A stretch of 40,283 nt of DNA from Polyangiaceae bacterium (GTDB lineage Bacteria > Myxococcota_A > Polyangia > Polyangiales > Polyangiaceae). The first letter of the stretch is position 1. Each line of letters starts with the position of its first letter. Of this stretch, positions 4,417 to 36,600 are shown in pieces. Under the pieces are notes generated by a model. It ran no database searches. It was given only the letters and a program-made list of their open reading frames with translations, and had not been told where the DNA came from. The translations under genes were made by a program, and so were the position numbers. Location: assembly GCA_029261965.1 (NCBI GenBank), contig JAJDAH010000041.1:1-40283 (forward strand), read 5' to 3'.

Positions 4417-4494
4417 CGCACCTGCGCAGGGGCACAGCGGGCCGAAGGAGGGTTGAGCGATCGGCCCGCGCGGCCTAGCCTTCCGGGCCTAGCG

Positions 4495-5844
4495 ATGAAC
4501 GATCACTCTACGCGCGTCTACGAGTCGATGCTCGGGCTGCTGAGCAACGAGCACAACCCCACCCCGCTCGTCCGGCTGAATCACGTTACCCCCTACGAGC
4601 ACACGACAGTCTACGCCAAGCTCGAGTGGTACAATCCCTTTGGCGCCGTCAAAGACCGTGTGGCTTCGAGCATGCTCAAGAGAGCCGAAGAGCAGGGCCA
4701 GCTCGGCGACGTCAAGAAACTCGTCGAGGCGACGAGCGGCAACACGGGCATGGGACTCATCATGCTCGCGAACGCCAAGGGGTACTCGTTGACGACGCCC
4801 CTGTCCGACGCCATCCCGCAGGAGAAACGCGACGTGATGCGGTTCTTCGGGTGCGACGTCATCGAGCTCGACGACAGCTTGTGTCCGGCGCCAGGTGCCC
4901 CGGAAGGTGCAATCGCCAAGGCGCAAGAAATCGCGGATTTGCCCGACTTCACCCAGCTCAACCAATACGAAAACGAAGCCAACCCCGACGCGCACTACCG
5001 TACGACCGGCCCCGAGGTGTGGAGGCAAACCGACGGAAAGGTGACGCACTTCGTCGCTGGGCTCGGCACTTGCGGCACGATCACGGGCACCGGTCGGTTC
5101 CTCAAGGAGAAGAGCCAGTCGGTCAAGGTGATGGGCGTGCACCCCGCAGAGGGTCACGACATCCCCGGGGTACGCAGCATCCGTCAGCTCTCGCAGACGT
5201 CGTTCTACAAACCCGACGAATACGACCAGCAGGTGGAGATCGACAACCAAGAGGCGTTCGCGATGTGCCTACAGCTGAATCGCGAGGAGAGCATCATTGC
5301 CGGGCCGAGCTCGGGCATGGCGCTCGCCGGCGCGCTCCGGATGATTCCGGACGAAAAGGGATTGATCGTCGTCGTCGTGTTTCCCGACAGCATCTTCAAG
5401 TACACGACGTCGGTTCGGCGCCATCTGCCGAAGCTTTTCCCGGCAGCGACGAAAGAGGCGAGCTCGGGGCCGAGCCCCGAGGAAGTGACCCTGCGCTCGA
5501 TGCTCGACGCGGCCCGCAAGTCGGACGACGTCATCGACGTCGGTCAGCTCGACGAATTACTCGTCGGGGATCCCCCGCCCGTGGTGATCGACGTGCGCAC
5601 CGCCGAGGAGTTCGGGGAAGAGCACATCGAAGGCTCGGTGAACCATCCGCTCGCGGAGCTATTCGAGCGGGCCTCGGACTTGCCCGATGATCGTGACGGG
5701 ACGATCGTGACGGTGTGCAACGTCGGCAAGCTCTCGCTCAGCGCGATGATCATCCTCAAGTCGATGGGCTACAAGAACGTGCGCAACCTGATGGGCGGGC
5801 TCAACGGTTGGCAGGCCGAGGGGCAACCGCTCGAGTTCGGCTGA
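4495..5844 (+). CDS. Cysteine/cystathionine synthase fused to a C-terminal rhodanese domain
   Basis: This is a 449-aa cytosolic enzyme from the ATG at 4495. A TTG at 4453 in the same frame touches a strong AAGGAGGG and is too close to use it, so the start is uncertain. Residues about 15-320 are a fold-type II PLP enzyme of the O-acetylserine sulfhydrylase/cystathionine beta-synthase family. The PLP lysine is in GAVKDR (Lys53), the substrate loop is TSGNT (80-84), and the Gly-rich phosphate loop is GLGTCGTITGTG. Residues about 345-445 are a rhodanese domain with IDVRTAEEF and the active-site loop beginning at Cys408 (CNVGKLS). The first domain makes or uses cysteine; the second could carry a persulfide. 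The fusion suggests sulfur transfer coupled to cysteine synthesis. It converges on the operon ending at 5894. Confidence 0.9.
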   Translation: MNDHSTRVYESMLGLLSNEHNPTPLVRLNHVTPYEHTTVYAKLEWYNPFGAVKDRVASSMLKRAEEQGQLGDVKKLVEATSGNTGMGLIMLANAKGYSLTTPLSDAIPQEKRDVMRFFGCDVIELDDSLCPAPGAPEGAIAKAQEIADLPDFTQLNQYENEANPDAHYRTTGPEVWRQTDGKVTHFVAGLGTCGTITGTGRFLKEKSQSVKVMGVHPAEGHDIPGVRSIRQLSQTSFYKPDEYDQQVEIDNQEAFAMCLQLNREESIIAGPSSGMALAGALRMIPDEKGLIVVVVFPDSIFKYTTSVRRHLPKLFPAATKEASSGPSPEEVTLRSMLDAARKSDDVIDVGQLDELLVGDPPPVVIDVRTAEEFGEEHIEGSVNHPLAELFERASDLPDDRDGTIVTVCNVGKLSLSAMIILKSMGYKNVRNLMGGLNGWQAEGQPLEFG

Positions 5845-5893: not shown

Positions 5894-6589
5894 TCAGAGC
5901 TGCTCGGCCCACTTCAGGAGGGCCGCCGTCACACGCTTCGACTTTTCTTCGTTGGAAAACTCGGGCGTGCGGGACATTTCGAGCTGGATCCACGGAAGGT
6001 CCTCGTGGTGCGCGCGCACGTTGTATCCGCCGGCGAACGGCTCGTTCATGGCAATCGGCGCGCCGAAGGCCTCGTCGAGGCACTTGGCCATACGCTCCAT
6101 CTCCGCGTCGGGGCAGGTGACCCCGCGACCGTTACCGAGACAAATGAGCGGGCGCTCGACGCCGGGATCCGGGCCTACCGGTGGCCCCTTGGCCGCCATG
6201 GTGTGGCAGTCGACGGCGAAACGAAACGACCCTGAGCGGCCGAGTTCGCTGAGCCGACGGTGGTAGGGCCGGTGGTAACGATCGATCAGTTGCTCGACGA
6301 GCTCGTCGGAAAGAGGCTCGCGATAGATCGGCACGTCCCAACACGTATGGGTTTTGACGATTCCGTCTTTGCGCCGGTCGTCCTCGGCGCGATTGATGTC
6401 GACGATCGCGCGGGCGACGTCGGTGGTGACGAACGCTCCCACCTCTTCGCGGAGCGAAAAGTAAATCTGCGCAGCACCGACGTCGCCGTCGTCGATGACC
6501 TCTTGCTCGGTGAGGATGCAGAGCGATTGCACCTCGTTCGGCACCCGGAGGCCGGCGTGAGGCACCGAAATCAAGATCGGACGCTTCAT
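5894..6589 (-). CDS. N-formylglutamate amidohydrolase-family hydrolase
   Basis: This is a 231-aa cytosolic enzyme of the family that hydrolyses N-formyl-L-glutamate, a zinc-dependent fold related to N-acetylmuramoyl-L-alanine amidases. Family hallmarks are visible in order: ISVPHAG near the N-terminus, AIVDINRAEDD, YHRPYHRRL, AVDCHTM, NEPFAGG and LEMSR. The likely metal ligands and catalytic residues all appear present. The ATG at 6589 overlaps the stop of the preceding GGT-family gene as ATGA, so translation is probably coupled. It is the last gene of the sigma-54 operon. No histidine-degradation genes are nearby, so the true substrate is more likely a formyl- or acyl-amino acid made or released by its operon partners. 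Confidence 0.85.
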   Translation of the reverse strand: MKRPILISVPHAGLRVPNEVQSLCILTEQEVIDDGDVGAAQIYFSLREEVGAFVTTDVARAIVDINRAEDDRRKDGIVKTHTCWDVPIYREPLSDELVEQLIDRYHRPYHRRLSELGRSGSFRFAVDCHTMAAKGPPVGPDPGVERPLICLGNGRGVTCPDAEMERMAKCLDEAFGAPIAMNEPFAGGYNVRAHHEDLPWIQLEMSRTPEFSNEEKSKRVTAALLKWAEQL

Positions 6590-8193
6590 GCTCGCGGGCC
6601 ATCCGCCGCGCCGTCGCGCCGAGGATCCGCGACGCCGATGAAGGAATCCCCTTCGCGGAGCACCAGCTGCACACAGCCCAAGTAGAAAGAGTAGGCGTCG
6701 CGCCGGTCGATGGTGAAGCCATACTTCTCGAGAAGCTCGGGCACGTCCGTGCGCATGCGCGACGCTTCGAGCGAGACCTTGCGGTCGAGATTGCAGTAGA
6801 GCCGTGGCGCGCTGACAGCGTCGAACGGGGATTGCTTTTTCAGTCTCAAGAGCACCTGCGCAATCGCCGGAGCGATGCGTTCGCTGCCTGGCGACCCGAT
6901 GCACAGCCAGGGGCGCCGCCCTTCGAAGACGATGGTGGGTGCGACGCTCGCCCACGGTACGGCGTTCGGGCGCAAGTAGTATGGGTGCGAGATATCCTCG
7001 TGCTCGAAGGCCATCATGTAGTTGTTGTAGAGGAATCCGAGATCTTCGGTGACTGCGCACGAGCCATAGACTCGTTCGATCGACTGAGTCAGGGCGACGA
7101 CGTTCCCGTCTCGGTCCATCACCGAAAGATGGGTGGTCTCACCGCTCGTTCGCACGCGTCGATCGATCTCCTTTACGCATTTCTTGGCGTATTCGTCGCT
7201 GAGCATGCGCTTGGTGTTGATCTGGGCGTAGTAGTTCGGATCGAACGGACGATCGGTTCGATCCATGACGGCTCGCCGCACGGTCTCGGCGAGGTAGAGC
7301 GCGCCCATCGGCGTGTCGATGCGCCGGCGCTTCTCCGGAAGGTGACTCAGGATGTTCATCAGCTCGATGAGCATGCGTCCCGCACCCGAAGGCGGCATGG
7401 TCATCACGCGTCGACCGAGGAACCACCCGGCGAGCGGGCGCCGCTCGATGGGGCGCGGGATCTGCGCGAGGTCGTCCTTCCGGATGAGCCCCTCGTTTTT
7501 CACCATGTCGGCGTGGATCGCTCGCGCAATTCGGCCCGTGTAGAAGTCGTCGGTACCGGCCTTGGCGAGGCGTCGCAGGGTCTGGGCCAGCGCCGGCTGT
7601 CGGAAGGTGTGGCCCGCGGGGAATACCGTTTTTCCGTCCTTGAGAAAAAACGGCCCGGCGGTCCCACCGCGCAGAGCCTTGCGCTCCCGTTTGGTGAGCG
7701 CGTGCTGCAGTTGGCTGACGGGGTAGCCGTTCTCCGCGAGCTCGATCGACGGAGCGAGAACGGTTGGGAGATCGAGCTTTCCGTAGCGCTTCAGCGCATA
7801 GCCGAGCGTCGCCGGTGTGCTCGGTACCGTCGTCGCCTTGTAGCCACGGCGGATCTCGGCCGAGCTGAGCGAGCCCGGGATCGCTCGGTTGGGGGCGCGA
7901 GACGAACCGTCGAGGGCGAACGTTTTCCCCGTCTTTCGGCTGTGCACCATCATCATCGTTTGCCCACCGAGCCCCGACGCCGCCGGCTCACACACCCCGA
8001 GGGCAAAGGCGGTGGCGACCGCGGCATCCATGGCGTTGCCGCCTTCTCGGAGGATCCGCACCCCCGCTTCGGTCGCCGCCCAGTGCTGCGCTGCGACCAT
8101 GCCGTGTGGTGAGGCGCCGAAGCGTTGTGGCTCGAAGTGAAAGGGTGAGCTCAGCTCACGTTCGTCGTTGATCGATGCGGAAGGTTTCTTCAC
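6586..8193 (-). CDS. Gamma-glutamyltransferase-family Ntn hydrolase (cytosolic paralog 1)
   Basis: This is a 535-aa member of the gamma-glutamyltranspeptidase superfamily, which self-cleaves to expose a catalytic threonine. GGNAMDAAVA and SGLGG are the usual N-terminal signatures. The processing site is in GETTHLSVMD, making Thr353 the likely nucleophile, followed by GNVVALTQSI. Several substrate-pocket positions differ from classical GGT: LDGSSRAP replaces the LDxRExAP that carries the carboxylate-binding Arg, and NNYMMAF replaces NNQMDDF. The substrate may not be a standard gamma-glutamyl compound. No signal peptide is present, whereas classical GGTs are exported. The start is GTG at 8193, preceded by GAGGT and overlapping the upstream stop by 4 bases (GTGA). 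A paralog lies at 11970-13622. Confidence 0.9.
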   Translation of the reverse strand: MKKPSASINDERELSSPFHFEPQRFGASPHGMVAAQHWAATEAGVRILREGGNAMDAAVATAFALGVCEPAASGLGGQTMMMVHSRKTGKTFALDGSSRAPNRAIPGSLSSAEIRRGYKATTVPSTPATLGYALKRYGKLDLPTVLAPSIELAENGYPVSQLQHALTKRERKALRGGTAGPFFLKDGKTVFPAGHTFRQPALAQTLRRLAKAGTDDFYTGRIARAIHADMVKNEGLIRKDDLAQIPRPIERRPLAGWFLGRRVMTMPPSGAGRMLIELMNILSHLPEKRRRIDTPMGALYLAETVRRAVMDRTDRPFDPNYYAQINTKRMLSDEYAKKCVKEIDRRVRTSGETTHLSVMDRDGNVVALTQSIERVYGSCAVTEDLGFLYNNYMMAFEHEDISHPYYLRPNAVPWASVAPTIVFEGRRPWLCIGSPGSERIAPAIAQVLLRLKKQSPFDAVSAPRLYCNLDRKVSLEASRMRTDVPELLEKYGFTIDRRDAYSFYLGCVQLVLREGDSFIGVADPRRDGAADGPRA

Positions 8194-10343
8194 GTGACCT
8201 CATGAACCAGATATTGAGAAAGCAAGAGAGTGCGCCGCAGCAAGCTGCTCCGCTGAACCCCCTCCATCGGCGTGTTGAGATCGCATGCCACCGGACCGAC
8301 ACCGCAGATGACGGGCACTCTTTCCGGCACGAGCCCCGCGACCGAGGGCCAGACCGAGGAGTCGGTGTCGACGGCCAGCTCCCACTTCTGGCCGGCCTTG
8401 GCGAACTGGGCGGCCAGCGCCTTGTTGCCGGCTCGATCCACCATGGGCGGCCGGTCCGACAGACATTCGAGCTCCCAGCGGTACTCGTCCTTGCCGAGCA
8501 GAATACGCATGCGCTCTTCGGCGCTGTCCGCCGCTTTCGTCGAGCCGTAGCCGACTAGAACCGTCGAGGCGACTCGGTGTGGCAGCTGCATCGGGAATCG
8601 GCTGGCGTTGATGTCGACCGCCGAGATAGCGAGCCGGTCTTTGCGCGAGCTCAGCGCCGCCAACGACTCGAGCTTGTTCCAAGTCCACCGAAGCACCTGG
8701 GGCTTCTTGGTGACTTGCCCGAGCCGTTGTGGTTTCCCCTCCACCGTGAACCGATACTTCCGCACCCCTCGGCGACTCGTGAAAACTTCTTCGCGGGCGC
8801 CAGCAGGGCGCAGAACGATGACCTCTTTGGCGCGGGCCGCCGCTGCCTTGATGGTCTTGGCGCTGTAGACGCAGTCCCGGCCTTCGTCGCCGTAGACCAG
8901 AATCCCGAGCGGTACGTTCTTCAAGCGCTTGAGCGATTTGGCTGCGCGGAGCGCGTATTCGAGCACGACCATCGGAGCCCGGGACGAGCCAACGCCTTCG
9001 CCGAACAGCCACTCGGGGTCGCGACGGAAGGGCGGGGACGCCGCTTGCGGATCGTACGGGACGTCGAGCTGCACGATGAATAGGCGTCCGTCGTCGATGC
9101 CCTTGGGCGTTGTCCAGGTCCAGACGCAGTTGTCGTCGGTCAGGTCGTTGGCCGCCTTGAAGCCGAGCTCGGAAAAGCGATTGCCTAAATGGCGCACCAT
9201 TTCCCGGTGACCAATTCGATCGTCCGTGCGGCTCGACATCGCTTCGAGGTCGCGCAAGCGCCGCTCGAGTCGATCGCGCCGCTCGGTCACGAACTTGAAG
9301 ACTTGGTCCTCGGGATCCGCTCCGCCGAAGCTGATGCTGGCCGCCGCGGGAGTGCCGAAGTACCGCGCGCTGGCGACTTCGACGAGGCGATTGGCGAGTC
9401 CAGCGAAGTCGAGCCCGGCAACTCCAGCCGCTTCGACGTAGGAGCCGTGCTCCCCCATGCTCGGCAAGCTGTTGACCTCGAGTACGAAGATGTTGTCGTC
9501 CTTGTCGATCCGCATGTCCACGCGCGCGCAGTCGTAGCAGCCCAAGGCGTTGAACGCGCGAACCGCCACGGCTTGCACCTTCGCGGTGAGCTCGTCGCCC
9601 AGGGGTGCTGGGCACACGGGTTGAATCGTGCGGCCGGACTTTCGTGTCTTGTCCTCGTAGGTGTAGATCTTCGGGCCGTCCGCTCCGAAGTCGAGCAGTA
9701 CGCCAGGCAGGGGCTCCGGCGGGTCATTGCCCAGAAGGCCGACATTGACCTCGCGACCATCGATGTATTGTTCGGCGAGCACGGGCTGCTTGTCGAAGTG
9801 ATCGAAGATCGCCTGGGCAGCTTCTCGGAGCTCGGCTTCGTCGTTGACGATCTTGATGCCAAAAGAAACGGCCTCGTTCTTCGGCTTGACGATGAGGGGG
9901 TAGGCCAGCCCTTCGGGCACGGGTGTGTCCGAGTCTTCGAGCACGCAGAAATCCGCCGTTGGGATCCCTTGCTGTCGAAAGATCATCTTGGAGACGACCT
10001 TGTCGAGCGCCAAAGAGTGCGCGAGTGGCCCGGATCCGACGTAGGGAACGCCGACCATCTCGAGGATGCTCGGCACGTGCGTGTACCGGGCCTGCCCTTG
10101 AATGCCGTAGGAGACGTTGAACACCATGCCAGGCCGCTCGTGCTTGATGACGGCAGGCATGAACTCTTCGAGCTTGTCCACCAGGTCCTTGTCGCCTTCG
10201 AGGGCGATGACTTGGTGGCCACCACTTTTGAGCGAATCCACGATGCGCTTGATCGTCTTCAATCCGATCTTTTCCTGGTTCGGGGCGCCGAACAGGTTGA
10301 TGACGCTATTGCTTTCGCGATTGTAGACGACGGCGATCTTCAT
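8190..10343 (-). CDS. D-Ala-D-Ala-ligase-type ATP-grasp enzyme fused to a metal-ligand-less M20 peptidase fold
   Basis: This is a 717-aa cytosolic protein. The ATG at 10343 has GGAG eight bases upstream, ahead of an A9 run. Residues 1-330 are an ATP-grasp carboxylate-amine ligase of the D-alanine-D-alanine ligase type: LIVKPK (150-155), LAEQYIDGREV (189-199) and the Mg-binding LEVNSLPSMGEHG (E289, N291). They look intact. Residues about 365-717 follow an M20 carboxypeptidase fold. QLDVPY (425-430) stands where HxD is expected, GEGVGSS (448-454) where GxxDxKG is expected, GDEGRD (485-490) where DEE is expected, and CGVGPVACDLNTPMEG (680-695) where the terminal GxGP...HTPxE is expected. The metal-binding His, Asp, Glu and final His are all replaced, so this half is probably a binding or regulatory domain. 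A dimerisation-domain-like segment follows residue 524. The substrate is unknown. Confidence 0.85.
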   Translation of the reverse strand: MKIAVVYNRESNSVINLFGAPNQEKIGLKTIKRIVDSLKSGGHQVIALEGDKDLVDKLEEFMPAVIKHERPGMVFNVSYGIQGQARYTHVPSILEMVGVPYVGSGPLAHSLALDKVVSKMIFRQQGIPTADFCVLEDSDTPVPEGLAYPLIVKPKNEAVSFGIKIVNDEAELREAAQAIFDHFDKQPVLAEQYIDGREVNVGLLGNDPPEPLPGVLLDFGADGPKIYTYEDKTRKSGRTIQPVCPAPLGDELTAKVQAVAVRAFNALGCYDCARVDMRIDKDDNIFVLEVNSLPSMGEHGSYVEAAGVAGLDFAGLANRLVEVASARYFGTPAAASISFGGADPEDQVFKFVTERRDRLERRLRDLEAMSSRTDDRIGHREMVRHLGNRFSELGFKAANDLTDDNCVWTWTTPKGIDDGRLFIVQLDVPYDPQAASPPFRRDPEWLFGEGVGSSRAPMVVLEYALRAAKSLKRLKNVPLGILVYGDEGRDCVYSAKTIKAAAARAKEVIVLRPAGAREEVFTSRRGVRKYRFTVEGKPQRLGQVTKKPQVLRWTWNKLESLAALSSRKDRLAISAVDINASRFPMQLPHRVASTVLVGYGSTKAADSAEERMRILLGKDEYRWELECLSDRPPMVDRAGNKALAAQFAKAGQKWELAVDTDSSVWPSVAGLVPERVPVICGVGPVACDLNTPMEGVQRSSLLRRTLLLSQYLVHEVT

Positions 10344-10408
10344 TTTTTTTTCTCCAAGTTCAACCGACGACGCCATCTCTGGGTGGCCGACGGATCGTTC
10401 ATTGACGG

Positions 10409-11908
10409 TCAGTCGAGGGAATTGTCGTCGTGACGGTCGTTCTGGGCGTTGCCATCTGCTCCGGCGGTCGCGCCTTGGGAGTAGCCGGACGAGCGATCGG
10501 TCACCCCCCACTCTTTCAGTCGGTACTGAACTGTCCGACGACTCAGCCCCAGCATCGACGATGCCTTGGTGATCGAGCCGCCGAGAGCTTTTAGGGTCTG
10601 CAGCACGGCGTAGCGCTCGATTTCGTCCATCGTCGCGCCGGGGATCATGATGCGCAGCACCTCGGCTTCTGGTTGAGAGCTGGACGAGGGCAGATCGGCG
10701 GTGTCGATTTCCGGCCCCTCGGCGAGCACGACGGCCTGCTCGACGGCGGTCTGCAGCTCGCGCACGTTGCCGGGCCATGGGTACTCGAGCAGGAGCCGCG
10801 TGGCGCCTTCGGTGAAGCTCTGCACGTCGATCTCGTTTTCCTCGCTGCTCTGGCGAAGAAAGTGATCGGCGAGAAGCAGAATGTCGCTCGGCCGAGCGCG
10901 CAGCGGCGGCACGTCGAGTCGAACGACGTTCAGACGATAGTATAGGTCCTCTCGGAAGTTGCCGTCTTCGACCAGGACCTTCAGCTCGCGGTTGGTAGCG
11001 GCGACGATTCGGGTGTCGACTTTGATGGTGTCGTTTCCGCCGACTCGTTCGAATTCGCGCTCCTGAAGGAACCGGAGCAGCTTGACCTGGGTCGGCTTGG
11101 GGATCTCGCTGACTTCGTCGAGAAACAGAGTCCCGGTGTCGGCTTGTTCGAACCGCCCCTCGCGCCGCGCCGCGGCACCGGTGAACGCGCCCTTCTCGTG
11201 TCCAAAAAGCTCGGACTCCAGCACGGCCTCGCTCAGCGAGGCGCAGTTCAGCCGGACGAATGGTCCGGTGGCCCTCTTCGAGTTTTGATGGATGGCGGCG
11301 GCCACGAGCTCCTTGCCCGTGCCGCTCTCTCCGTGGATCAACACCGTGGATCGAGTCTTCGCGACGTGTGCCACTTTTTGAAGCAGCCGTTGCATGGCCG
11401 GGTGGTTGCCGACGATCGCGTCGAGGTTGGTGACCGACAGCGTTTCTTGTGCGCGCCGCTTGAACCGGGAAGCATCTCTCGCCAGCCGTGCTCTTTCGCA
11501 CGCGAGATCCACCACAGGGTTCAGACCCTCTTCGTCGATGGGATCGAAAACGCAGGTCTCGGCGCCGCTCCGCACCGCGCTCGCCACGGCTTCCGGAGAG
11601 CTCGGCGTGACCGCGACGATGCACATGTGAGGAGCACGCTCCCTGGCTTTGCTGATCCACTCCATCCCGTCGTCGCCAGCGTCGACTACGGAAATCAGCG
11701 CCGCGTCGGCATCGCGCTGCTCGATCGCGGTGAGCGCCGCCCCGTCCCGCTCCAGACTCTGCGTTTGGTAGCCCGCGGCTTCCAGCGACTGGGCGATGCG
11801 GGCCACATCGTTTGGGCGCAGCCCCACGAGAAGCACGTTGCCGGTGCGATCTCCCGTCATGGCCTGGTCGCCCGGGGTCGCTCCATCCGTCGCCGCATCT
11901 TGCGCCAT
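10409..11908 (-). CDS. Sigma-54-dependent activator with a degenerate receiver domain
   Basis: This is a 499-aa NtrC-type enhancer-binding protein. Residues about 23-128 fold as a receiver but lack the phosphorylation site: the acidic pair is replaced by LLVGLRPND, the position of the phospho-acceptor Asp by alignment from the DDGMEW turn is Ser (ALISVVD), and the KP motif is DP. The AAA+ domain is complete, with Walker A GESGTGKE (193-200), the sigma-54 contact loop GAFTGA (240-245), Walker B GTLFLDE (259-265) and GNVRELQ. The C-terminus is a Fis-type helix-turn-helix (GGSITKASSMLGLSRRTVQYRL). The start is uncertain: ATG at 11908, or GTG at 11947; neither has a strong ribosome site. It lies inside the operon whose -24/-12 promoter it probably activates. 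Confidence 0.93.
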   Translation of the reverse strand: MAQDAATDGATPGDQAMTGDRTGNVLLVGLRPNDVARIAQSLEAAGYQTQSLERDGAALTAIEQRDADAALISVVDAGDDGMEWISKARERAPHMCIVAVTPSSPEAVASAVRSGAETCVFDPIDEEGLNPVVDLACERARLARDASRFKRRAQETLSVTNLDAIVGNHPAMQRLLQKVAHVAKTRSTVLIHGESGTGKELVAAAIHQNSKRATGPFVRLNCASLSEAVLESELFGHEKGAFTGAAARREGRFEQADTGTLFLDEVSEIPKPTQVKLLRFLQEREFERVGGNDTIKVDTRIVAATNRELKVLVEDGNFREDLYYRLNVVRLDVPPLRARPSDILLLADHFLRQSSEENEIDVQSFTEGATRLLLEYPWPGNVRELQTAVEQAVVLAEGPEIDTADLPSSSSQPEAEVLRIMIPGATMDEIERYAVLQTLKALGGSITKASSMLGLSRRTVQYRLKEWGVTDRSSGYSQGATAGADGNAQNDRHDDNSLD

Positions 11909-11969
11909 CGAACGTCCAGCATGCCGCTGCCGGCTGGGCACGTCCACGAGGGATTTGACCCAAATTCAG

Positions 11970-13622
11970 TCATTTTTCCGGTCCCGCGCCACCATCGCGG
12001 CGTGGGTCCGCGACCGCGATGAACGAACGCCCCGATCGGGCCGTGAGCTGCAGGCCGCCGGTGTTGAACGCGTACGCATCGAGAGGCTCCAGGGTGAATC
12101 CCCAGGCTTCGAGGGCGTCGAGGACTCGCTGCTCCATCCGCGGCGCTTCGATGAGGACCACGCCCTCTGGTGTGCAGTGCAGCCTCGGCGCGGCTACCGC
12201 CTCGAACGGAGTGTTTCGGGCTAGCCGCAGAAGGACACAAAACATGCTCGAGGCGGCTCGCTCCGACCCCGTCGAGCCGAGCACGACGGTGGGTTTGCCG
12301 CCCTGGAGCAGGATGGTCGGAGCGGCGTTGGATCTCGCCACGGCGCCGGGCCGCAGGAAGTACGGGTGCTCGGGGTTTTTCGCTTTGAACGCGCGTAGAA
12401 AGCCGTTGTAGAGAAATCCGAGGCGCGGGGACGCGCAAGCGGATCCGAAGCTCCGTTCGATGGATTGTGTGAGCGCCACGGCGTTGCCTTGTGCGTCCAT
12501 CACCGACAGGTGTGAGGTTTCTCCGGTTCCCGCTTGCCCAGGCGTGCGAGCGTCGCTCGACCTGTCCTTGCGCAGGGTTTCGATCTCCGCTGTGACGGCC
12601 TCGAGGTATTCGGTCGACAGTACGCGGATGGCCGACCCGGGAGAGTTCGTGCCGGTTTCGAGATTGAGTCGACGCCGGTCTTGGCGCACGCGTTGGATGA
12701 TGGCAGCAGCCGTCGTCAAACCTGCGGGTGAGTCGAGGTCGATGTCGCCGCCTTCGATGGTTTCGGCCAACCGCAACATCTCCGCGAACCACAATCCGCC
12801 CGCTGGTGGACCGACGGTGCGCACGTCGGAGTCTCCGAACCACAGCGAGAGAGGTTGCGCAGGTTGCCCGAACTCGACGGACGCCAGGTCGTCCTCGCGA
12901 ATGAAGCCGCCGTTGTCGCGCATGTCTCGGACGATTTCCGCGGCGATTTCCCCTTCGTAGAAGTCTCGCAGCCCCGCCTCGCTGAGCTGCGCGAGCGTGT
13001 CGGCGAGAGCGGGTTGGCGCCACAGCGCGCCGACGTCGGGGATCCGTCCCGAAGGATCGAGCATGACGTCGGCTCCGTTGTGCCCGTTCAGCGCCTTGGC
13101 GTAGCTCGAGAGGGTGGCGTTCTGAACCGGAGTCACTCGAAAGCCATTCTTCGCGAGCTCGATCGCCGGCTCCATCACGCGCGAGACCGTCCAGGTGCCC
13201 CAACGTTCGAGCGCGGCCGCGAGTACCGCTGGCAGCGTCGGCACTGCCACGGCGCCGTAGCCACGATACCGGTGCAGACCTCGAATCGCTTCTGGCGTAG
13301 CCAGTCGCGGCGCTAGGCAGCTTCCGGGCAGAGCCAGCGTCTCTCTCTTGGTCGCGTCGTGCACGAGCATCATGCCCATGCCGCCGAGGCCAGAGCCGGC
13401 GGGCTCTACGACCGCCAGCGCGAGGCTCGCCGCAACCGCTGCATCGATGGCATTGCCTCCCGCTCGAAGCACGTCGCTTCCGGCTCGGGTCGCCAGATAG
13501 TGGGCCGTCGCGACCGCACCGAGCTCGGATTCGGACGACCACCACTTTGGGTCGTCGCGCCGGTCCGAGCGATCGATGAAAGGATCAGCCTCGCCGTGCC
13601 GAGGGCCTTCTGAGGATGTCAC
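11970..13622 (-). CDS. Gamma-glutamyltransferase-family Ntn hydrolase (cytosolic paralog 2)
   Basis: This is a 550-aa paralog of the protein at 6586-8193. The open frame extends further upstream, but GTG at 13622 overlaps the preceding stop as GTGA, exactly like its paralog, and gives the matching length. Signatures are GGNAIDAAVA, SGLGG and the processing site GETSHLSVMD with Thr369 as the likely nucleophile, followed by GNAVALTQSIERSFGS. The carboxylate-binding Arg segment is replaced by LPGSCLAP, and NNQMDDF by NGFLRAF, so the substrate pocket differs from classical GGT and also from its paralog. There is no signal peptide. The two paralogs could act on different amides, or one could process the other's product. 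Confidence 0.88.
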   Translation of the reverse strand: MTSSEGPRHGEADPFIDRSDRRDDPKWWSSESELGAVATAHYLATRAGSDVLRAGGNAIDAAVAASLALAVVEPAGSGLGGMGMMLVHDATKRETLALPGSCLAPRLATPEAIRGLHRYRGYGAVAVPTLPAVLAAALERWGTWTVSRVMEPAIELAKNGFRVTPVQNATLSSYAKALNGHNGADVMLDPSGRIPDVGALWRQPALADTLAQLSEAGLRDFYEGEIAAEIVRDMRDNGGFIREDDLASVEFGQPAQPLSLWFGDSDVRTVGPPAGGLWFAEMLRLAETIEGGDIDLDSPAGLTTAAAIIQRVRQDRRRLNLETGTNSPGSAIRVLSTEYLEAVTAEIETLRKDRSSDARTPGQAGTGETSHLSVMDAQGNAVALTQSIERSFGSACASPRLGFLYNGFLRAFKAKNPEHPYFLRPGAVARSNAAPTILLQGGKPTVVLGSTGSERAASSMFCVLLRLARNTPFEAVAAPRLHCTPEGVVLIEAPRMEQRVLDALEAWGFTLEPLDAYAFNTGGLQLTARSGRSFIAVADPRRDGGAGPEK

Positions 13623-13816
13623 GCTCGAGCTTTCCGCCGACTGAGGGTTCGCTCGTCGGAGACGGCCTCGAGGACTCCGTCCAAGAGCGCGACGTGCTCG
13701 TCGAGTGCTGCTAGGAGCTCCGTCAAGCAGAGTCGGGCGCGATCCGGCTTGCCGGACGCCATCGATTCGTGTGCTTCCTTGGCGAGCGATACGAGCTGGC
13801 GGGTGTGCCCCCGCAT
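13619..13816 (-). CDS. Small helical protein, first gene of the sigma-54 operon
   Basis: This is a 65-aa predicted all-helical, charged, soluble protein from the ATG at 13816. That start has GAGGTG nine bases upstream. The longer frame from ATG at 13849 (76 aa) would begin about one base after the transcription start predicted from the sigma-54 element at 13861-13876, which argues for the shorter form. The protein is rich in Leu, Ala, Glu and Arg with His at several helix positions (MRGHTRQL, LDEHVALLDG). I do not recognise a family. The stop overlaps the GTG of the next gene by 4 bases, so the two are probably translationally coupled. Confidence 0.6.
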   Translation of the reverse strand: MRGHTRQLVSLAKEAHESMASGKPDRARLCLTELLAALDEHVALLDGVLEAVSDERTLSRRKARA

Positions 13817-13860: not shown

Positions 13861-13876
13861 AGCAAATCGAGTGCCA
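13861..13876 (-). promoter_or_regulatory. Predicted sigma-54 (-24/-12) promoter of the ligase/GGT operon
   Basis: On the minus strand the sequence reads TGGCAC-TCGAT-TTGCT, preceded by T. This matches the consensus YTGGCAC-N5-TTGCW, with exactly ten bases between the GG and GC dinucleotides. The -24 GG is at 13875-13874 and the -12 GC at 13863-13862, which predicts transcription starting near 13850, directly in front of the six-gene operon. A sigma-54 activator encoded in that operon (10409-11908) is the natural candidate to drive it. I found no obvious enhancer repeat upstream by eye. Confidence 0.75.
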
Positions 13877-15005: not shown

Positions 15006-16523
15006 TCAGGGATTCGCCGTGGGGGCGGATTTCGACGGCGTAGCGAGCGCGATCGTGACGGTCACTTGGTCGCGCGTTTCAGGCGCCAAGTGAATTTCAG
15101 GGGGAAGCACCAGGTTCGCGGTCACCTTCCGCGATCGTTCGAGCTGTCCGAGGTCGACGAGCTCGGTGGCGATGAACGTGAACCGACTCTGCTCGCCCTT
15201 GCGGACTTCGACCAGCACTCTGGGGGGATCGGCGCGCACCGCCAGTACGTGCAGACCGTTTCGTGGCAGGCCGCGGGTCCGCACTTTGACCGGAAGGCGG
15301 GTTGGGACCATCTGGTGGGCTTTGATTTCCACTCGCGGCGGCTGAAACCCGACGATTGACACGTCTTTGGGCCGTGTGACGTGGTGCGGTCCGAGTACGA
15401 TCGACTGAGTCCCGGCGCGCACACGAGCTGCGTCGAGCGACACGGCGAGAACGTGCGGCTCGAGCTGAAGCACGGTTCCACTCGGACCCGAAACCGAAAT
15501 TTGCACGAGCGAGGGCTCCGGAGGTTCTATCTGCCAGGCTTCGGGTACGTTCCGGTAGACCACCGGGACCGAAAGTGTGCGGGCCACGGTTTCAGTGCGC
15601 TGTCCAAAGAGCACGACCCAGGCAAGCGTCGCGACGAGTAGCGAAAACGCTTTGGCGCCGACGTCCTCGGTGAGCACGCTCCGAAGCCGGGACACTCGGC
15701 GAGCTGGCGCCTTGGATTCGAGGAACGCGGTCAAGCGGCGACCGAGTTCGCGCGGAGTAACGGTGGCGATTTCTCCCGCCTCCGCGACGCTGATCACGCC
15801 ACGCTCTTCGGAGACGACGATCACGAAGGCGTCGCTTCGCTCCGACACACCGAGGCCGGCGGCGTGACGGGTTCCTCCGGGATGCTTCGCGGCCTTGGTG
15901 GACAAGGGGAGGTGCACCGCGAATCTCTCGAGTCGCCCTCCGATGATTACGACGGCCCCATCGTGGCCCGGCGAGCTCGAGTCGAAGATGCTGAAGAGCA
16001 GCTGTTCGCTCACGGCTCCTCCCAGCTCCACGCCGGCAGAAAAGTGTCGCTCGAGCGGCTCGCGGCCGCGGAACACGATGAGAGCGCCGGTTCGTGTACG
16101 CGCGAGGTGCTCTGCGGAGCTCACCGTCGTCTCGACCAGCGCGGCGTTCGGCGTCGCTCTGTCTCGGTCGCCTCGAGTACCTCTCATCGCGATGCGCTCG
16201 AAGGCGCGACGAATCTCCTCCTGGAAGATGACGACGAGGGCCACCAACGCAATGGTGAATGCCGCTTGAAACAAGTAGACCGTCAGGTGCATGTCGAGCG
16301 CCTGGGCGACGAGGTAGAGCGCGGCCAGTATCGCGACACCGAAGATCACGAAACGCGACTGGGCTCGCCGGAGCCACGCGATCGTTGCGTAGCCGAGCAC
16401 GGCGATCACCACGATGTCGATGGCGTCGGCGGGGCGCGCTTGGCCGAGTGACGCGAGCAGCGCCCCCCCAGCATTTTTCAGGAAAGCGGTGATGCCGGCG
16501 ACATCAGCCCCCTGCTCGTTCAC
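15006..16523 (-). CDS. Diadenylate cyclase (CdaA type) fused to YbbR (CdaR-type) domains
   Basis: This is a 505-aa membrane protein. The start is GTG at 16523 with GGAG eight to nine bases upstream. Residues about 35-105 hold three transmembrane helices and the QEEIRRAFE linker typical of CdaA. The cyclase domain (about 120-265) has the catalytic DGA motif (GHDGAVV, 188-190). The second motif, usually RHR, reads RHA (GGTRHAAGLG, 219-221). A further membrane segment (about 290-307) leads into two YbbR-like beta domains that would lie outside the membrane. In Firmicutes the cyclase and its YbbR regulator are separate neighbouring genes; here they are one protein. The product should be c-di-AMP, which controls K+, Mg2+ and osmolyte balance in other bacteria. 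It is the last gene of the ion-transport operon. Confidence 0.9.
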   Translation of the reverse strand: MNEQGADVAGITAFLKNAGGALLASLGQARPADAIDIVVIAVLGYATIAWLRRAQSRFVIFGVAILAALYLVAQALDMHLTVYLFQAAFTIALVALVVIFQEEIRRAFERIAMRGTRGDRDRATPNAALVETTVSSAEHLARTRTGALIVFRGREPLERHFSAGVELGGAVSEQLLFSIFDSSSPGHDGAVVIIGGRLERFAVHLPLSTKAAKHPGGTRHAAGLGVSERSDAFVIVVSEERGVISVAEAGEIATVTPRELGRRLTAFLESKAPARRVSRLRSVLTEDVGAKAFSLLVATLAWVVLFGQRTETVARTLSVPVVYRNVPEAWQIEPPEPSLVQISVSGPSGTVLQLEPHVLAVSLDAARVRAGTQSIVLGPHHVTRPKDVSIVGFQPPRVEIKAHQMVPTRLPVKVRTRGLPRNGLHVLAVRADPPRVLVEVRKGEQSRFTFIATELVDLGQLERSRKVTANLVLPPEIHLAPETRDQVTVTIALATPSKSAPTANP

Positions 16524-22854: not shown

Positions 22855-22975
22855 GTTGATTCTCCTCCAGTGGTGCGAGAGTTGCAGCCGCCGTGCCAAG
22901 CCAAAACGAGGCAGAAGACGCAGTCGCTGCGCTGATGCCGTGCACGCTCTGCTCGGCCGTGTGCAGGACTTGCAC

Positions 22976-26984: not shown

Positions 26985-28247
26985 ATGCAATTCGCCGCCG
27001 TAGGAGCTAGCGACGTCGGCAGGCAGCGAGAGCAGAACGAGGACAAACATCTCGTCGACCACGAGCTCGGCCTGTTCATAGTGAGCGACGGCATGGGCGG
27101 GCATGCCGCCGGAGAGGTCGCCTCGGGTACGGCGGTGAGGGTGGTTCACGAGCAGCTTCGAAGTCAGGCCGCTCTCGTTCGCGAGGTCGTCGACGGGGGC
27201 CGCGATGCTCGAGATCTGGCGCAAGTCACCGAGGCCGCCGTGCAAGCGGCCTGCGCCGAGGTGTATCGCATGGCGACGAGCAAGGCCGAGCACGCCGGGA
27301 TGGGGTGCACGCTCACGATGTTGGTTGCCGCAGGGGACAAGGCCGTCATGGGCCATGTTGGCGATACGCGGCTCTATCTGCTGCGTTCGGACGAGAGTCA
27401 CCTCCTGTCGGCGGACCACACCCTTCCGGCGGAGCTCGCCCGCCGTGGCGCCCTCGATCCCAGTGAGGTGAAGAACCACCCGTATTCGAGCGTTCTGACC
27501 CGGAGCATCGGGACGCAACCAGCCGTACAGGTCGACACGTTGATCATCGATGTCATGGCCGGCGATCGCCTGTTGCTCTGCTCCGACGGCCTGAGCGAAT
27601 ATCTCGAGGATCCGAGCGACGTCGTGCGGGAGCTATCGGGACCGCCCATCGACGAAATCCCTGGCCGGCTCGTGGCGTTCGCCAACGAAGGCGGTGGCCA
27701 CGACAACGTCACAGCCATCGTCATCGAGGTCGAGCCAGCCCCACCAACCGTGGAAGACGGTCTCCCGACCCTAGAAGACGTTCCCGCGGACGCCCAGATC
27801 AACCTCGACGCGTTGGCTTCGGTGTTCTTGTTCGAGGACTTGCCTCTGTCGCACCACGCACGTCTGCTCGACGCGTGCGCCGTCCGATGGTTCGACACCG
27901 GGCAAACGGTCGTGGCTGCCGGAAACGAAGTCGAGTCCCTTTTCGTCGTGGCGGACGGCACCTTCTTGCTGCAACAAGACGGCGAGACCGTCGCCAAGCT
28001 AGAGCCCGGTGATCACGTCGGCGCCGCAACGCTGCTTCGACCCCGTCCGGCGAGGACGTCGCTCGTGGCCGAGTCGTCGGGGCGCCTGCTGGAGCTCGGC
28101 GCGGCGCAGTTTCGGCGCGTGGGTCAGGTCCGACCTTGGCTCGGCGTTGCGCTGCTCGAGGGGCTCGGCAGATGGTTGAGCCAGGACGATTCTCGAGAGG
28201 AACTCGTGCCGGGCACGGCATCCGCATCGCTCGGGGATCTGTTCTGA
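26985..28247 (+). CDS. PP2C-type Ser/Thr phosphatase with a C-terminal cyclic-nucleotide-binding domain
   Basis: This is a 420-aa cytosolic protein from the ATG at 26985, with GAGAGG eight bases upstream. Residues 1-250 are a PP2C phosphatase: EQNEDKHLV (Asp20), VSDGMGGHAAGE (Asp35), GHVGDTRLYLL, CSDGLSEYL and GGGHDNVTAIVI supply the metal-binding Asp residues. After a Pro/Glu linker, residues about 285-400 form a CRP-type cNMP-binding fold (LFEDLPLSHHARLLD, VESLFVVADGTFLLQQDG, LEPGDHVGAATLL). Such phosphatases reverse Hanks-type kinase signalling; the fused domain may gate the activity with a nucleotide. A double kinase lies at 37595-39994. Confidence 0.9.
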   Translation: MQFAAVGASDVGRQREQNEDKHLVDHELGLFIVSDGMGGHAAGEVASGTAVRVVHEQLRSQAALVREVVDGGRDARDLAQVTEAAVQAACAEVYRMATSKAEHAGMGCTLTMLVAAGDKAVMGHVGDTRLYLLRSDESHLLSADHTLPAELARRGALDPSEVKNHPYSSVLTRSIGTQPAVQVDTLIIDVMAGDRLLLCSDGLSEYLEDPSDVVRELSGPPIDEIPGRLVAFANEGGGHDNVTAIVIEVEPAPPTVEDGLPTLEDVPADAQINLDALASVFLFEDLPLSHHARLLDACAVRWFDTGQTVVAAGNEVESLFVVADGTFLLQQDGETVAKLEPGDHVGAATLLRPRPARTSLVAESSGRLLELGAAQFRRVGQVRPWLGVALLEGLGRWLSQDDSREELVPGTASASLGDLF

Positions 28248-34074: not shown

Positions 34075-36591
34075 CTACGGGCACGCGGATCCCGCCGGAA
34101 GACACAGAGTATCGCCGCCGAGCGAGCAGCACACCGGGTTCGGGTTTCCGACCCCGCACTGCCAGCACCCCGTGGCGTACAGAAATCCGGTGCACGAGCC
34201 GCCGACGCAGGTCTCCCCGGCGTCGCACTTGTTTCCGCATCCGCCGCAGTGAGCCGGGTCGCTGCTCGTGTCTGCGCACGAGTTGTTGCAGTCGACGCGA
34301 CCCCCGGTGCAGCTGATTCGGCAACCGCCGTTCTGGCACTTCGGGCTCACGATGGGCAGACATCCACCGCCGCACCCACCGCAGTTGCCCGCATCCGAAG
34401 CGATGTTGACGCAAGCGCTTCCGCACTTGACGAGTCCCGGTGCGCAGTCGTCGACAGCGCAGGATCCTCCTTCGCACTGTTCCCCCGAGCTGCAGCCACC
34501 GCCACACGTGCCGCAGAAGCGGGGATCCTCCGCTGGATCGATGCAAGCAGGACCGCCAGCCGTCGAGCACGCGATCGGTGTCGTCGCGCTGCAGCTCACT
34601 TCGCAGGTCCCGGCGTTGCACGTCGCGCTGCCGGTGCCGCCACCGGAAACCGGGGCCATGCACACGTTGTCGCAGCTGCCGCAGTGGCTCGGGTTGCTCT
34701 GGGTGTCGATACACTGGGCGCCGCACGCCGTCTGACCCGGCGGACAACCCAGGACGCACATGCCGTTGGCGCATACTTGGCCGCCCGCGCAAGCGTTGCC
34801 GCAGGTCCCACAGTTCTGTCCGTTCGTGGAGAGATCGACGCAGGCGCCGGAGCAGGCGCTGAATCCGGCGCTGCAGGAAATCCCGCAAGAGCCGGTCGTG
34901 CACGTCGCCAGTCCGTTGGTGGGTACGGGACACGCGTTGCCACAGCCCCCGCAGTTGGCGGTGCTCGAGCGTGTGTCGACGCAAACCGAGCCGCACTTGG
35001 TGAACCCCGCCGAGCACGTGAAGGTGCAGGAGCCGTTGCTGCACGTTGGAGCGCCGTTCGGTGGCGCCGAGCACACTTCGCCGCACGTGCCGCAGTTCGA
35101 GGTATCCGTCTGGGTGTTGACGCACGAACCGTCGCAGTTGCTCGTGCCCGACGGGCACGTCGTAGTGCAGCCGCCACCTGCGCAGACCTGGCTCCCGGAG
35201 CACGAATTGCCGCAAGCGCCACAGTGGTTGATGTTGCTCTGCAGGCTCACGCACTGCCCCGAGCAATCGGAAAAGCCCGGATTGCATGCGATCGAGCACT
35301 GCCCTGTGGTGCACGCCGCCGCGCCGTTGCTCGGGCTCGAGCAAACGACGTCGCAGCCGCCGCAATTCTGCGTGTCGGCAGACGTGTTTCTGCACTCGCC
35401 ACCGCACTCGCCGAAGCCCGGCTCGCAAGAGATCTGGCACGCCGAGCCTGCGCAAGCAGCGGTGGCGTTGGCCGGCTCGTTGCACGCGACACCGCATCCG
35501 CCGCAGTTGGCGGGGTCGCTCGTCGGATCGACGCATTGACCGCTGCAGCCGAGCTCACCCTGGTTGCAGGAGTCCGAGCAAGAACCGCTCGTGCAGAACT
35601 TCCCGAGCTCGCAAGCGTTCCCGCAGGCGCCACAGTGGTTGGGGTTGGCGCTGACGTCGACGCACTGGTCGCCGCACTTGACGAATCCTGGGTCGCAGGT
35701 GAAGTCGCAGGCGCCGCCGGAGCAGACCGCCTTGCCGCGGGCCGGTACCGCGCAAGCATTCCCGCACCCACCGCAGTGGTTGGTGTCCTTGGAGGTGTCG
35801 ATGCAGCCGGTCCCGCACGCCTCGAAGCCAGTGGCGCAGCGAAATCCACAGGTCCCCGCGGCGCAAGTAGCCGAGCCGTTGGACGGTGTTGCGCAGGCCG
35901 CGTCGCATCCGCCGCAATGTGCGGGATCGGTGTCCGCATCGATGCAGGCTTGACCGCACTGTAGGAGCTCGGTCGGGCAAGAATCTGCGCATCCGCCGGG
36001 TGCGCAGACCTTGGCAGTGTCGCAAACGACGTCGCAGCCGCCGCAGTGATTCGGATTGCTGTCGGTGTCTACGCAGGTCCCGCCGCATTCGCTGCTGCCG
36101 GGCTCGCATGCGATCGCACACTGTCCTTCGGAGCACGTTGCTTGTCCGCCGGTGACCGCCGGGCAGGCGTTTCCGCACTCGCCACAGTTCTGTGCATCGG
36201 CCCGAGCATCCACGCAGGAGGCGCCGCAGCGCGTCCGGCCGTCGTCGCACATGAAGTCGCACGTCGAGTCGGCGCATACGGGCATGGCTCCGGGCGGCGC
36301 GGTGCAACCCGCTCCGCAACCCCCACAGTTGGCTGGGTCTTCCTCGAGCCGCGCGCAACTCTGTCCGCAGTTGGTTTCGCCGACGTCGCAGGCAATCGGT
36401 CCCGAGTCAGCTACCGTCCCCTCCCGTACGCACGTGCGAGTTCCGGGGTCACAAGTGAAGCCGGCCAGACATTCGCCCGCCGCCGTACATGCTTTTCCGT
36501 CGACGGTGCCTTCGATGTCCGCGGTGCAGGCGATCGCCAGCGCGAGAAGCATCAGCCAGAGCGCGCCGAGCAAAGATTGTTTGTGCGTCAT
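34075..36591 (-). CDS. Cys-rich lipoprotein with 16 tandem repeats
   Basis: This is an 838-aa secreted lipoprotein. AGGAGG precedes two consecutive ATGs; the second (36591) has the better spacing. The lipobox is AIAC. The mature chain is built from about 16 repeats of roughly 42-48 residues, each with a core of the form NCGGCGxxC preceded by CGxxCVDxxxDPxx and followed by xxGxxxCxxGxC. Sixteen such NCG or HCG cores can be counted. Public annotations of similar myxobacterial proteins sometimes read tryptophan synthase alpha chain; no such enzyme fold is present here. It is probably a long disulphide-braced surface stalk. It follows the TPR/PEGA gene by 9 bases. Confidence 0.88.
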   Translation of the reverse strand: MTHKQSLLGALWLMLLALAIACTADIEGTVDGKACTAAGECLAGFTCDPGTRTCVREGTVADSGPIACDVGETNCGQSCARLEEDPANCGGCGAGCTAPPGAMPVCADSTCDFMCDDGRTRCGASCVDARADAQNCGECGNACPAVTGGQATCSEGQCAIACEPGSSECGGTCVDTDSNPNHCGGCDVVCDTAKVCAPGGCADSCPTELLQCGQACIDADTDPAHCGGCDAACATPSNGSATCAAGTCGFRCATGFEACGTGCIDTSKDTNHCGGCGNACAVPARGKAVCSGGACDFTCDPGFVKCGDQCVDVSANPNHCGACGNACELGKFCTSGSCSDSCNQGELGCSGQCVDPTSDPANCGGCGVACNEPANATAACAGSACQISCEPGFGECGGECRNTSADTQNCGGCDVVCSSPSNGAAACTTGQCSIACNPGFSDCSGQCVSLQSNINHCGACGNSCSGSQVCAGGGCTTTCPSGTSNCDGSCVNTQTDTSNCGTCGEVCSAPPNGAPTCSNGSCTFTCSAGFTKCGSVCVDTRSSTANCGGCGNACPVPTNGLATCTTGSCGISCSAGFSACSGACVDLSTNGQNCGTCGNACAGGQVCANGMCVLGCPPGQTACGAQCIDTQSNPSHCGSCDNVCMAPVSGGGTGSATCNAGTCEVSCSATTPIACSTAGGPACIDPAEDPRFCGTCGGGCSSGEQCEGGSCAVDDCAPGLVKCGSACVNIASDAGNCGGCGGGCLPIVSPKCQNGGCRISCTGGRVDCNNSCADTSSDPAHCGGCGNKCDAGETCVGGSCTGFLYATGCWQCGVGNPNPVCCSLGGDTLCLPAGSACP

Positions 36592-36600
36592 CATGACCTC

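Follow-up and report, generated by a model that had tools for sequence, protein, structure and literature searches.

A Ddl-related ATP-grasp ligase fused to a pseudo-M20 domain in a conserved operon with two putative amide-cutting enzymes

The window analyzed here, a stretch of 40,283 nucleotides from a Polyangiaceae bacterium, encodes a protein of 717 residues, with no internal stop in the translation, in which a Ddl-like ATP-grasp ligase is joined to a domain predicted to adopt the fold of an M20 carboxypeptidase and having other residues at the positions of its metal ligands (Table 1). We judge the chances to be about even that this protein is a Ddl-related amide ligase with a repurposed, zinc-less C terminus of the carboxypeptidase G2 type, acting in an operon that makes and trims an amide compound. 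The location of the fusion with two amide-cutting enzymes in a conserved operon points to an undescribed make-and-trim pathway. Fusions of a pseudoenzyme to a live enzyme are good cases for studying how a dead fold gains a function, and, just as the earlier note knew of no protein with this layout, the portions of the literature searched yielded no description of a pseudo-M20 domain on an ATP-grasp ligase; in the searched part of PMC11266112, "M20" occurs only inside reference numbers, and the ATP-grasp amidoligase survey that Iyer and co-workers published in 2009 may mention the layout.

Table 1. Features of the fusion locus (positions in the window)
Feature	Position	Strand	Basis or remark
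Ddl-like ATP-grasp ligase (residues 1-335) plus pseudo-M20 domain (residues about 345-717)	8190..10343	-	Pfam, profile, predicted structure
ATP-grasp half	9324..10343	-	Pfam, alignment with canonical Ddl of same genome
Pseudo-M20 half	8193..9335	-	Ligand alignment, predicted structure
GGT2, gamma-glutamyltransferase-fold Ntn hydrolase	6586..8193	-	GTG start, 4-base overlap with ligase stop
FGase (N-formylglutamate amidohydrolase family)	5894..6589	-	ATG, 4-base overlap with GGT2 stop
Sigma-54-dependent activator, directly upstream of fusion	10409..11947	-	AAA+, Fis-type HTH; receiver-like region below Pfam cut-off
GGT1, second GGT-fold protein, same gene run	11970..13700	-	Putative start; open frame to 13934
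-24/-12 promoter-like site TGGCACTCGATTTGCT, upstream of GGT1	13861..13876	-	Candidate only; 1 mismatch

The ligase half shares with the Ddl/Van family (TIGR01205, PF07478) the ATP-grasp fold and the ATP and Mg residues, and is 31% identical to the Ddl of its own genome. Dala_Dala_lig_C matches residues 122 to 322 (E=1e-37), and K153, E191, R274, D276, E289, and N291 are invariant in 8/8 aligned rows, the canonical Ddl of the genome included, so that the ATP and Mg residues read from the sequence by the earlier note, with the E289-x-N291 motif, are indeed in place. Because these residues are kept, this half would be expected to activate a carboxylate with ATP and join it to an amine. However, the fusion differs from Ddl by a 10-column insert before the Ddl Glu, by replacement of the omega-loop Tyr and the NTLPGMT acceptor loop, and by its C-terminal extension. 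The loop for the acceptor D-Ala, with the motif N-T-x-P-G-M that the genome's own Ddl retains, is replaced in all seven rows of the clade: the four orthologues read NSLPS(M/L)G, the paralogue NSMADLG, and the two rhizobial sequences NSMAALG and NSMPSLD. The TIGR01205 score of the fusion (172.0 bits) is below the curated cut-off of 245.65, while the separate Ddl encoded elsewhere in the genome (G000:C132) scores 308.9, which rules out the fusion as the Ddl of the cell; the fusion also stays below the cut-off of every NCBIfam family among the matches listed (25 of 56). The product would be a small amide-linked amino-acid compound rather than D-Ala-D-Ala.

For residues 345 to 717, the sole Pfam match was to F-box_5 and insignificant (E=0.7), PF01546 being unmatched at E≤1, and all the NCBIfam matches listed lie within the ligase half, so the M20 assignment needed profiles. 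The G409 orthologue scores 20.0 bits against PF01546, short of the gathering score of 24.6. A profile of four C-terminal halves, however, matched carboxypeptidase G2 in the PDB with an E value of 7.3e-13. The model of the C-terminal half (pLDDT 86.8, pTM 0.87), built on an alignment that included four genuine M20 sequences, shows the complete M20 fold with catalytic and lid domains; it aligns with carboxypeptidase G2 over 370 residues (Z 38.6, rmsd 4.8), and Foldseek matched it to M20 with an E value of 1.7e-24. The profile match, the Foldseek search, and the structure alignment rule out a chance similarity, and the M20 fold to the C-terminal end, which the earlier note had proposed and for which it had named structure prediction and search as the check, is borne out. 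The full-length AlphaFold model, made from two fusion sequences, reached a pLDDT of only 37.1. In a tree of the 37 rows left by a length filter that also dropped some genuine M20 loci, the five fusion C-terminal halves form one clade against the genuine M20s (99/98).

Those five are four orthologues (the window, a Nitrospirota MAG, G237, and G409) and one paralogue from the genome of the window. The fusion family shares the fold, including the lid, with M20 (PF01546, PF07687), but its metal ligands are replaced. In the window copy, D427 and E487 are kept, the metal-ligand positions hold Q425, S453, G488, R512, and N690, and R540 stands where M20s have the His of HAG. Across the four orthologues, the zinc ligands H, D, E, E, and H become QHHH, SVVT, GGGG, RRRR, and NYYN, and the paralogue has N, K, F, T, and D. 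Four of the five ligands are therefore replaced in every orthologue, the first His is lost from the window copy only, and the two ligand Glu residues have become an invariant Arg and an invariant Gly, while the catalytic Glu (E487) stays. The replacements of HxD by QLD, DxK by SxR, DEE by DEG, and HT by NT listed in the earlier note are correct for the window copy, although QLD is not a family trait, as three orthologues retain HLD, and R512 (at a zinc-ligand Glu) and R540 were overlooked.

Besides D427 and E487, the four orthologues have the newly invariant residues C491, C680, R512, R540, W665, and G488. In the paralogue, most of the new ones are missing (T for R512, E for R540, F for G488), P replaces E487, and D427 has also been lost, which confines the new pocket to the four orthologues. 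Fusion-specific invariants concentrate near the old active site (14/41 in 45/379 columns, p=5.2e-5 at ±4 residues), whereas invariants common to genuine M20s do not (11/65, p=0.12); the enrichment depends on the width of this span, which the analyst chose, with uncorrected p values of 0.12 (±2), 0.024 (±3), 5e-5 (±4), and 6e-4 (±5). In the C-terminal half, dN was lower than dS in all the pairs with computable dS (3 of the 6 pairs), a rough guide given that dS was near saturation (1.1 to 1.75). Decay of this copy alone is ruled out by these dN values and by the ligand loss seen in the paralogue and, apart from the first His, in the orthologues of three other genomes. Neither outcome named in the earlier note as refuting its view, a structure lacking the M20 fold or homologues with intact ligands, was observed; family-wide loss together with clustered new invariants indicates repurposing rather than local decay. 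Since the metal ligands are lost, hydrolysis by the M20 zinc mechanism is not expected, and the "dead" peptidase of the earlier note would be dead with respect to this ancestral chemistry only. Substrate binding in M20 enzymes relies on the RNxxP Asn, the GGGSD loop, and the HAG His. That Asn, the Asp of GGGSD, and the His are likewise replaced in the fusion family, which makes peptide binding in the ancestral way unlikely.

The gene order of fusion, GGT-fold hydrolase, and N-formylglutamate-amidohydrolase-like enzyme is conserved in all four orthologous loci. At the paralogue locus a GGT follows the paralogue, and no FGase was found within the 17 kb examined. Of 177 genomes of the order, only the two that carry the fusion have a GGT matching GGT2 at E≤1e-90; the fusion itself was scored over 183 genomes. 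GGT2 resembles GGT and the GGT-fold acylases (PF01019) in its family match and nucleophile, its catalytic Thr (T353) aligning with the residue at which the small subunits in solved structures begin; its PDB matches include 2nlz, labelled cephalosporin acylase, and 2e0w, the GGT of E. coli. It differs in having Ser (His in Bradyrhizobium) aligned with the Arg of the glutamyl alpha-carboxylate pocket (R114 of E. coli), in other altered pocket residues, and in a score below the TIGR00066 cut-off. The altered pocket disfavors a role in ordinary GGT glutathione metabolism. FGase reaches PF05013 (142.7 bits) and, with 69.3 bits against TIGR02017, falls short of the HutG cut-off of 278.75. The three genes are likely to be annotated as "D-Ala-D-Ala ligase", "gamma-glutamyltransferase", and "N-formylglutamate deformylase", although each scores below the curated NCBIfam cut-off for that name. 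GGT2, with its non-glutamyl pocket, and the FGase-type amidohydrolase probably act on the ligase product, by trimming, transfer, or breakdown. The operon is probably under sigma-54 control, with sigma-54-type sites in two loci; against this, the sole candidate of L041 has 3 mismatches, and none with up to 3 mismatches was found in the scanned stretches of L009 and L040 or at window positions 10343 to 10700 before the fusion. Ser/Thr kinase genes adjoin two of the loci.

In the ligase tree, the fusion belongs to the same clade as ligases of rhizobial plasmids (support 100/99). These standalone proteins (NGR234 WP_010875202.1, Bradyrhizobium WP_011090946.1) are 41.5 to 46.2% identical to the fusion over at most residues 1 to 338 and, unlike it, lack the pseudo-M20 domain. 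Of the 13 plasmid records that hold a rhizobial sister ligase, 2 also have a GGT2-like gene (E≤1e-60); given this and the missing FGase beside the paralogue, the ligase clade can do without either partner. The two Bradyrhizobium records have, besides GGT, a KamA-like radical SAM protein and 7TM proteins as partners, and ectB and amino-acid ligases lie near one relative. A 7TM_transglut protein is encoded next to one of the sister ligases; another sister ligase carries a similar region as a fusion. According to PMC12239564, the Rlo system combines a retropepsin (RloA), an inactive transglutaminase-7TM protein (RloB), and an ATP-grasp protein (RloC), so that, like the fusion, it pairs ATP-grasp with an enzyme-dead hydrolase-like domain, but its dead fold is a transglutaminase, its protease is another one, and its setting is secreted. 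No retropepsin family appeared among the Pfam matches of the window ORFs scanned. The fusion, GGT, and FGase, with their simpler rhizobial relatives, form a compact set from which an undescribed metabolite could be traced experimentally; the operon, the two partners, and the sister ligases were absent from the earlier note.

The old cleft of the pseudo-M20 half, with its invariant arginines, is probably the binding site of an anion, be it substrate, product, or partner; serving in this way for docking or sensing, the half would tune or dock the ligase. A more specific reading, in which a metal-free, arginine-lined pocket cooperates with the amide ligase in an undescribed ligase/Ntn-hydrolase/FGase pathway that serves an amino-acid-derived metabolite and is partly shared with rhizobial plasmids, is tentative, and the same holds, taken jointly, for the pocket as an allosteric gate, a carrier of acyl-phosphate or product, or the site of a new metal-independent reaction. 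It is rather unlikely that the half is only a scaffold for dimerization or stability, with the lid dimerizing as in M20 and the cleft without ligand. The lost ancestral substrate residues fit such a scaffold, as do the faster evolution of the C-terminal half (43 to 55% amino-acid identity between fusions, against 65 to 72% for the N-terminal half), the M20_dimer region seen in G409 as a sub-threshold Pfam match (17.9 bits against 21), and the paralogue, still similar across the whole fold although the new pocket residues are missing; but new invariants cluster at the old active site, and an empty cleft would hardly account for the kept catalytic Glu and for R512, R540, and G488 being invariant among the four orthologues. 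Presentation of substrate, which the earlier note had suggested along with product sensing, may be possible, yet with the ancestral substrate residues lost it is not favored over the purely structural role.

New catalysis by the C-terminal half, as a hydrolase that is metal-free or uses another metal or by acyl transfer in sequence with the ligase, seems improbable: four of the five metal ligands are absent from every orthologue, and the invariance of D427 and the general-base Glu E487, which together with the new C491, C680, R512, R540, and W665 would favor it, breaks down in the paralogue and is therefore not general. We regard as very improbable a system in which the ligase, like RimK, tags proteins with amino acids at the C terminus or on side chains and GGT2 and FGase remove the tags. 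The ligase belongs to the Ddl branch, whose characterized members make dipeptides, and of its rhizobial relatives two adjoin a KamA-like gene and one lies near ectB and amino-acid ligase genes; on the other side, the pairing of ATP-grasp with hydrolases resembles the RimK/RimB and Rlo systems (PMC12239564), and the adjoining kinase genes would suit protein tagging.

At E≤0.001, the C-half profile matched in 121/377 genomes of the same phylum, a count that includes fusion genomes and partial matches. Ten other longer frames whose final part matches M20 had no ligase half by phmmer (E≤1e-3) and are not counted as fusions; seven of them were scanned with Pfam along with three other proteins, and these seven exceeded the M20 cut-offs, two with an overlapping M28 match and otherwise no further domain. 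None of the 583 matching plasmid records covered 80% of the fusion, and no whole-fusion relatives were found among viral contigs. The branching differs between the halves, the Nitrospirota copy grouping with G409 in the ligase tree (99/87) and with G237 in the M20 tree (99/91).

The ATP-grasp/M20-like fusion (here the fusion) is a real, rare and conserved two-domain protein. Its N-half (residues 1 to 335) matches Dala_Dala_lig_C in Pfam over residues 122 to 322 (E=1e-37), the PDB relatives listed for it are D-Ala-D-Ala ligases and Van ligases, and all 25 NCBIfam families listed, of the 56 matched by the fusion, lie in this half. For residues 345 to 717, Pfam returned F-box_5 alone (E=0.7), and a single-sequence phmmer query reached carboxypeptidase G2 (CPG2), an M20 peptidase, only at E=0.31. 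With a profile built from four C-halves (A2), CPG2 was matched at E=7.3e-13 over profile positions 16 to 308. At E<=0.001, A2 had matches in 121 of the 377 genomes of the same phylum, a tally that takes in the fusion genomes and partial matches; one matched ORF, in locus L044, clears both Pfam M20 cut-offs.

The C-half was modeled by AlphaFold2 with a mean pLDDT of 86.8 and a pTM of 0.87 from a six-sequence alignment, four rows of which were genuine M20 proteins picked after the sequence profile had shown homology. The top Foldseek match of this model was CPG2 (E=1.7e-24), and VIA-align aligned 370 residues of the two (model residues 1 to 381; Z 38.6, rmsd 4.8). A full-length model from two sequences reached a pLDDT of only 37.1, too low to place the two halves relative to each other. 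The earlier note had proposed an ATP-grasp ligase joined to an M20-like half, and the Pfam match, the A2-CPG2 match and the predicted fold all uphold it, with the reminder that the M20 fold, CPG2 first, was recovered with genuine M20 rows in the alignment.

A search for other such fusions found full-length relatives in a Nitrospirota MAG (L009, 57% identity), in genomes G237 (60%) and G409 (from the same order), and in the window's own genome (paralogue G000:C431, 35%). We aligned the C-halves of the four orthologues and the paralogue with five genuine M20 proteins, one of which has Gly in the bridging Asp column. The residue replacements read earlier in the window copy are correct and ligand loss extends across the family, but the QLD motif is peculiar to the window copy, the other orthologues keeping the His.

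Residues at M20 metal-site columns; the roles (ligand, bridging, catalytic, HAG) are those of the residues in M20 enzymes
Column	Window	L009	G237	G409	Paralogue
First ligand His	Q	H	H	H	N
HxD Asp	D	D	D	D	I
Bridging Asp	S	V	V	T	K
Catalytic Glu	E	E	E	E	P
Ligand Glu (G488 column)	G	G	G	G	F
Ligand Glu (R512 column)	R	R	R	R	T
HAG His	R	R	R	R	E
Last ligand His	N	Y	Y	N	D

In a 37-row tree, the five fusion C-halves form a single long-branched clade apart from genuine M20 proteins (support 99/98), which fits, without proving, a single fusion and a single ligand loss.

The lost site does not look like a mere relic in the orthologues. They share 106 invariant residues in 379 aligned columns, and 25 of the 45 columns within 4 residues of five ligand positions are invariant (p=3e-5; p=0.007, 0.005 and 0.0008 at ±2, 3 and 5 residues, all p values here being uncorrected and the sizes of ±2 to 5 our choice). 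Forty-one of these invariants are fusion-specific, occurring in none of the five genuine M20s, and 14 of the 41 fall in the 45 site columns (p=5e-5; p=0.12, 0.024 and 0.0006 at ±2, 3 and 5), while the remaining invariants are not enriched there (11/65, p=0.12). The dN/dS ratios were 0.27 to 0.49 for the C-half and 0.13 to 0.22 for the N-half in the three of six pairs with computable dS, which was near saturation. The clustered invariants and dN/dS together indicate that the old site of the orthologues is conserved in a new form: R512 stands for a ligand Glu, G488 for the other Glu and R540 for the HAG His, R455 replaces a Lys in three of the four, and D427 and E487 are kept. From this residue set we infer a putative anion-binding cleft in the orthologues; the paralogue lacks R512, R540, G488, D427 and E487. 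The earlier interpretation is partly right: a ligase with an M20 fold lacking the metal site stands, while the substrate-presenting or product-sensing role is conjectural. Any mechanism beyond the ligase, a repurposed metal-free M20 domain and two amide hydrolases would likewise be conjecture.

The fusion lies in an operon that is apparently undescribed in the literature searched; ATP-grasp ligases and pseudopeptidases are known kinds, here joined in one protein. On the minus strand of the window, the order is GGT1 (a GGT-fold protein), a sigma-54 activator, the fusion, GGT2 (a second GGT-fold protein) and FGase (an N-formylglutamate-amidohydrolase-family enzyme), with 4-base overlaps at both joints downstream of the fusion. 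The order is sigma-54 activator, Ser/Thr kinase, fusion, GGT and FGase in L009; fusion, GGT and an FGase truncated where the contig stops in G237; and fusion, GGT, FGase, a second GGT and a Ser/Thr kinase in G409, whose contig stops just upstream of the fusion. For the paralogue, a GGT is the sole such partner within 17 kb. GGT2 keeps the Thr nucleophile but has Ser in place of the glutamyl-pocket Arg, and adjoining pocket residues differ too. Of 177 genomes of the order, 2 encode a GGT that matches GGT2 at E<=1e-90, and these are the two fusion carriers among 183. Allowing at most one mismatch, the whole window has 2 sigma-54 sites where 0.33 would be expected. The scanned stretches of L009 and L040 and the DNA directly before the window fusion had no site with up to three mismatches, and the best site of L041 carries three.

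Coordinates of the features discussed and of other fusions and repeats seen in the loci
Feature	Position	Remark
Fusion gene	8190-10343 (-)	open frame, 717 aa, N-terminus MKIAVVYN
PLP-dependent enzyme + rhodanese domain fusion	window 4453-5844	convergent with the FGase gene
CdaA-type diadenylate cyclase + YbbR matches	window 15006-16523	one polypeptide
Cyclic-nucleotide-binding domain + PP2C phosphatase	window 26985-28247	fused
Seven STIG1 matches	window 34078-36594	839-aa frame; family named from plants, here in a bacterial genome
Sigma-54 site, one mismatch		upstream of GGT1, window
Sigma-54 site, at most one mismatch	window 22883-22898	second of the window, unrelated
Perfect -24/-12 sigma-54 site	L104:10747-10762	ends 31 bases before the G409 fusion start codon
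KamA-like radical SAM, GGT, 7TM (7TM_transglut-type membrane protein), Ddl-like ATP-grasp ligase	L062:6282-11047	compact cluster with the genes in this order, Bradyrhizobium plasmid NZ_CP088281.1
Methyltransferase + Ddl-like ATP-grasp fusion	L009:3011-4999	~3 kb from the Nitrospirota fusion gene
7TM region + same-clade ligase	L065:4238-6325	genome G158; region like a Bradyrhizobium 7TM protein

Full-length fusions were found in two genomes among 282 of the phylum, two among 183 of the order (an order tally of 5 adds three genomes with proteins that the ligase tree shows to be tandem ATP-grasps) and one among 13 of G237's family. Exact peptide patterns, which reach close relatives only, recovered 1 fusion locus from GTDB contigs.

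The ligase half is distinct from canonical Ddl, which the genome encodes separately (G000:C132, 308.9 bits against the TIGR01205 cut-off of 245.65); the fusion scores 172.0 bits, under that cut-off. The ATP/Mg residues K153, E191, R274, D276, E289 and N291 are invariant in all eight aligned rows, G000:C132 included, whereas all seven non-Ddl rows depart from Ddl in its NTLPGMT acceptor loop and at its omega-loop Tyr. A 60-domain tree groups the fusions and paralogue with six rhizobial plasmid ligases and one 7TM-fused ligase in a clade of 12 (support 100/99). The Nitrospirota copy falls among the window's same-phylum copies in both trees, which suggests, on tree placement, a transfer of the fusion between phyla; the two halves disagree on its neighbor, the ligase half placing it beside G409 and the M20 half beside G237.

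Sister ligases without the M20 half occur on 13 plasmid records (41.5 to 46.2% identity), whose hosts are exclusively Rhizobium, Sinorhizobium, Bradyrhizobium or Mesorhizobium. Two of the 13, both Bradyrhizobium, carry a GGT2-like gene at E<=1e-60: besides the compact cluster, the other record has its GGT and ligase ~0.9 kb apart. In Mesorhizobium, the ligase follows a KamA-like gene, with no GGT found within 21 kb, and in Sinorhizobium meliloti, ectB and amino-acid ligases lie near the ligase; three further loci had no partner of the KamA-like, GGT or amino-acid-ligase type in an incomplete gene table. The KamA-like protein matches six families, each below its cut-off. These neighbors hint at a tie of the ligase clade to small-molecule amino-acid chemistry.

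Among 20 further loci retrieved, 15 (within L066-L083) have two tandem Ddl-like ATP-grasp domains in one frame of 636 to 815 aa, and the two halves sit in separate clades of the ligase tree.
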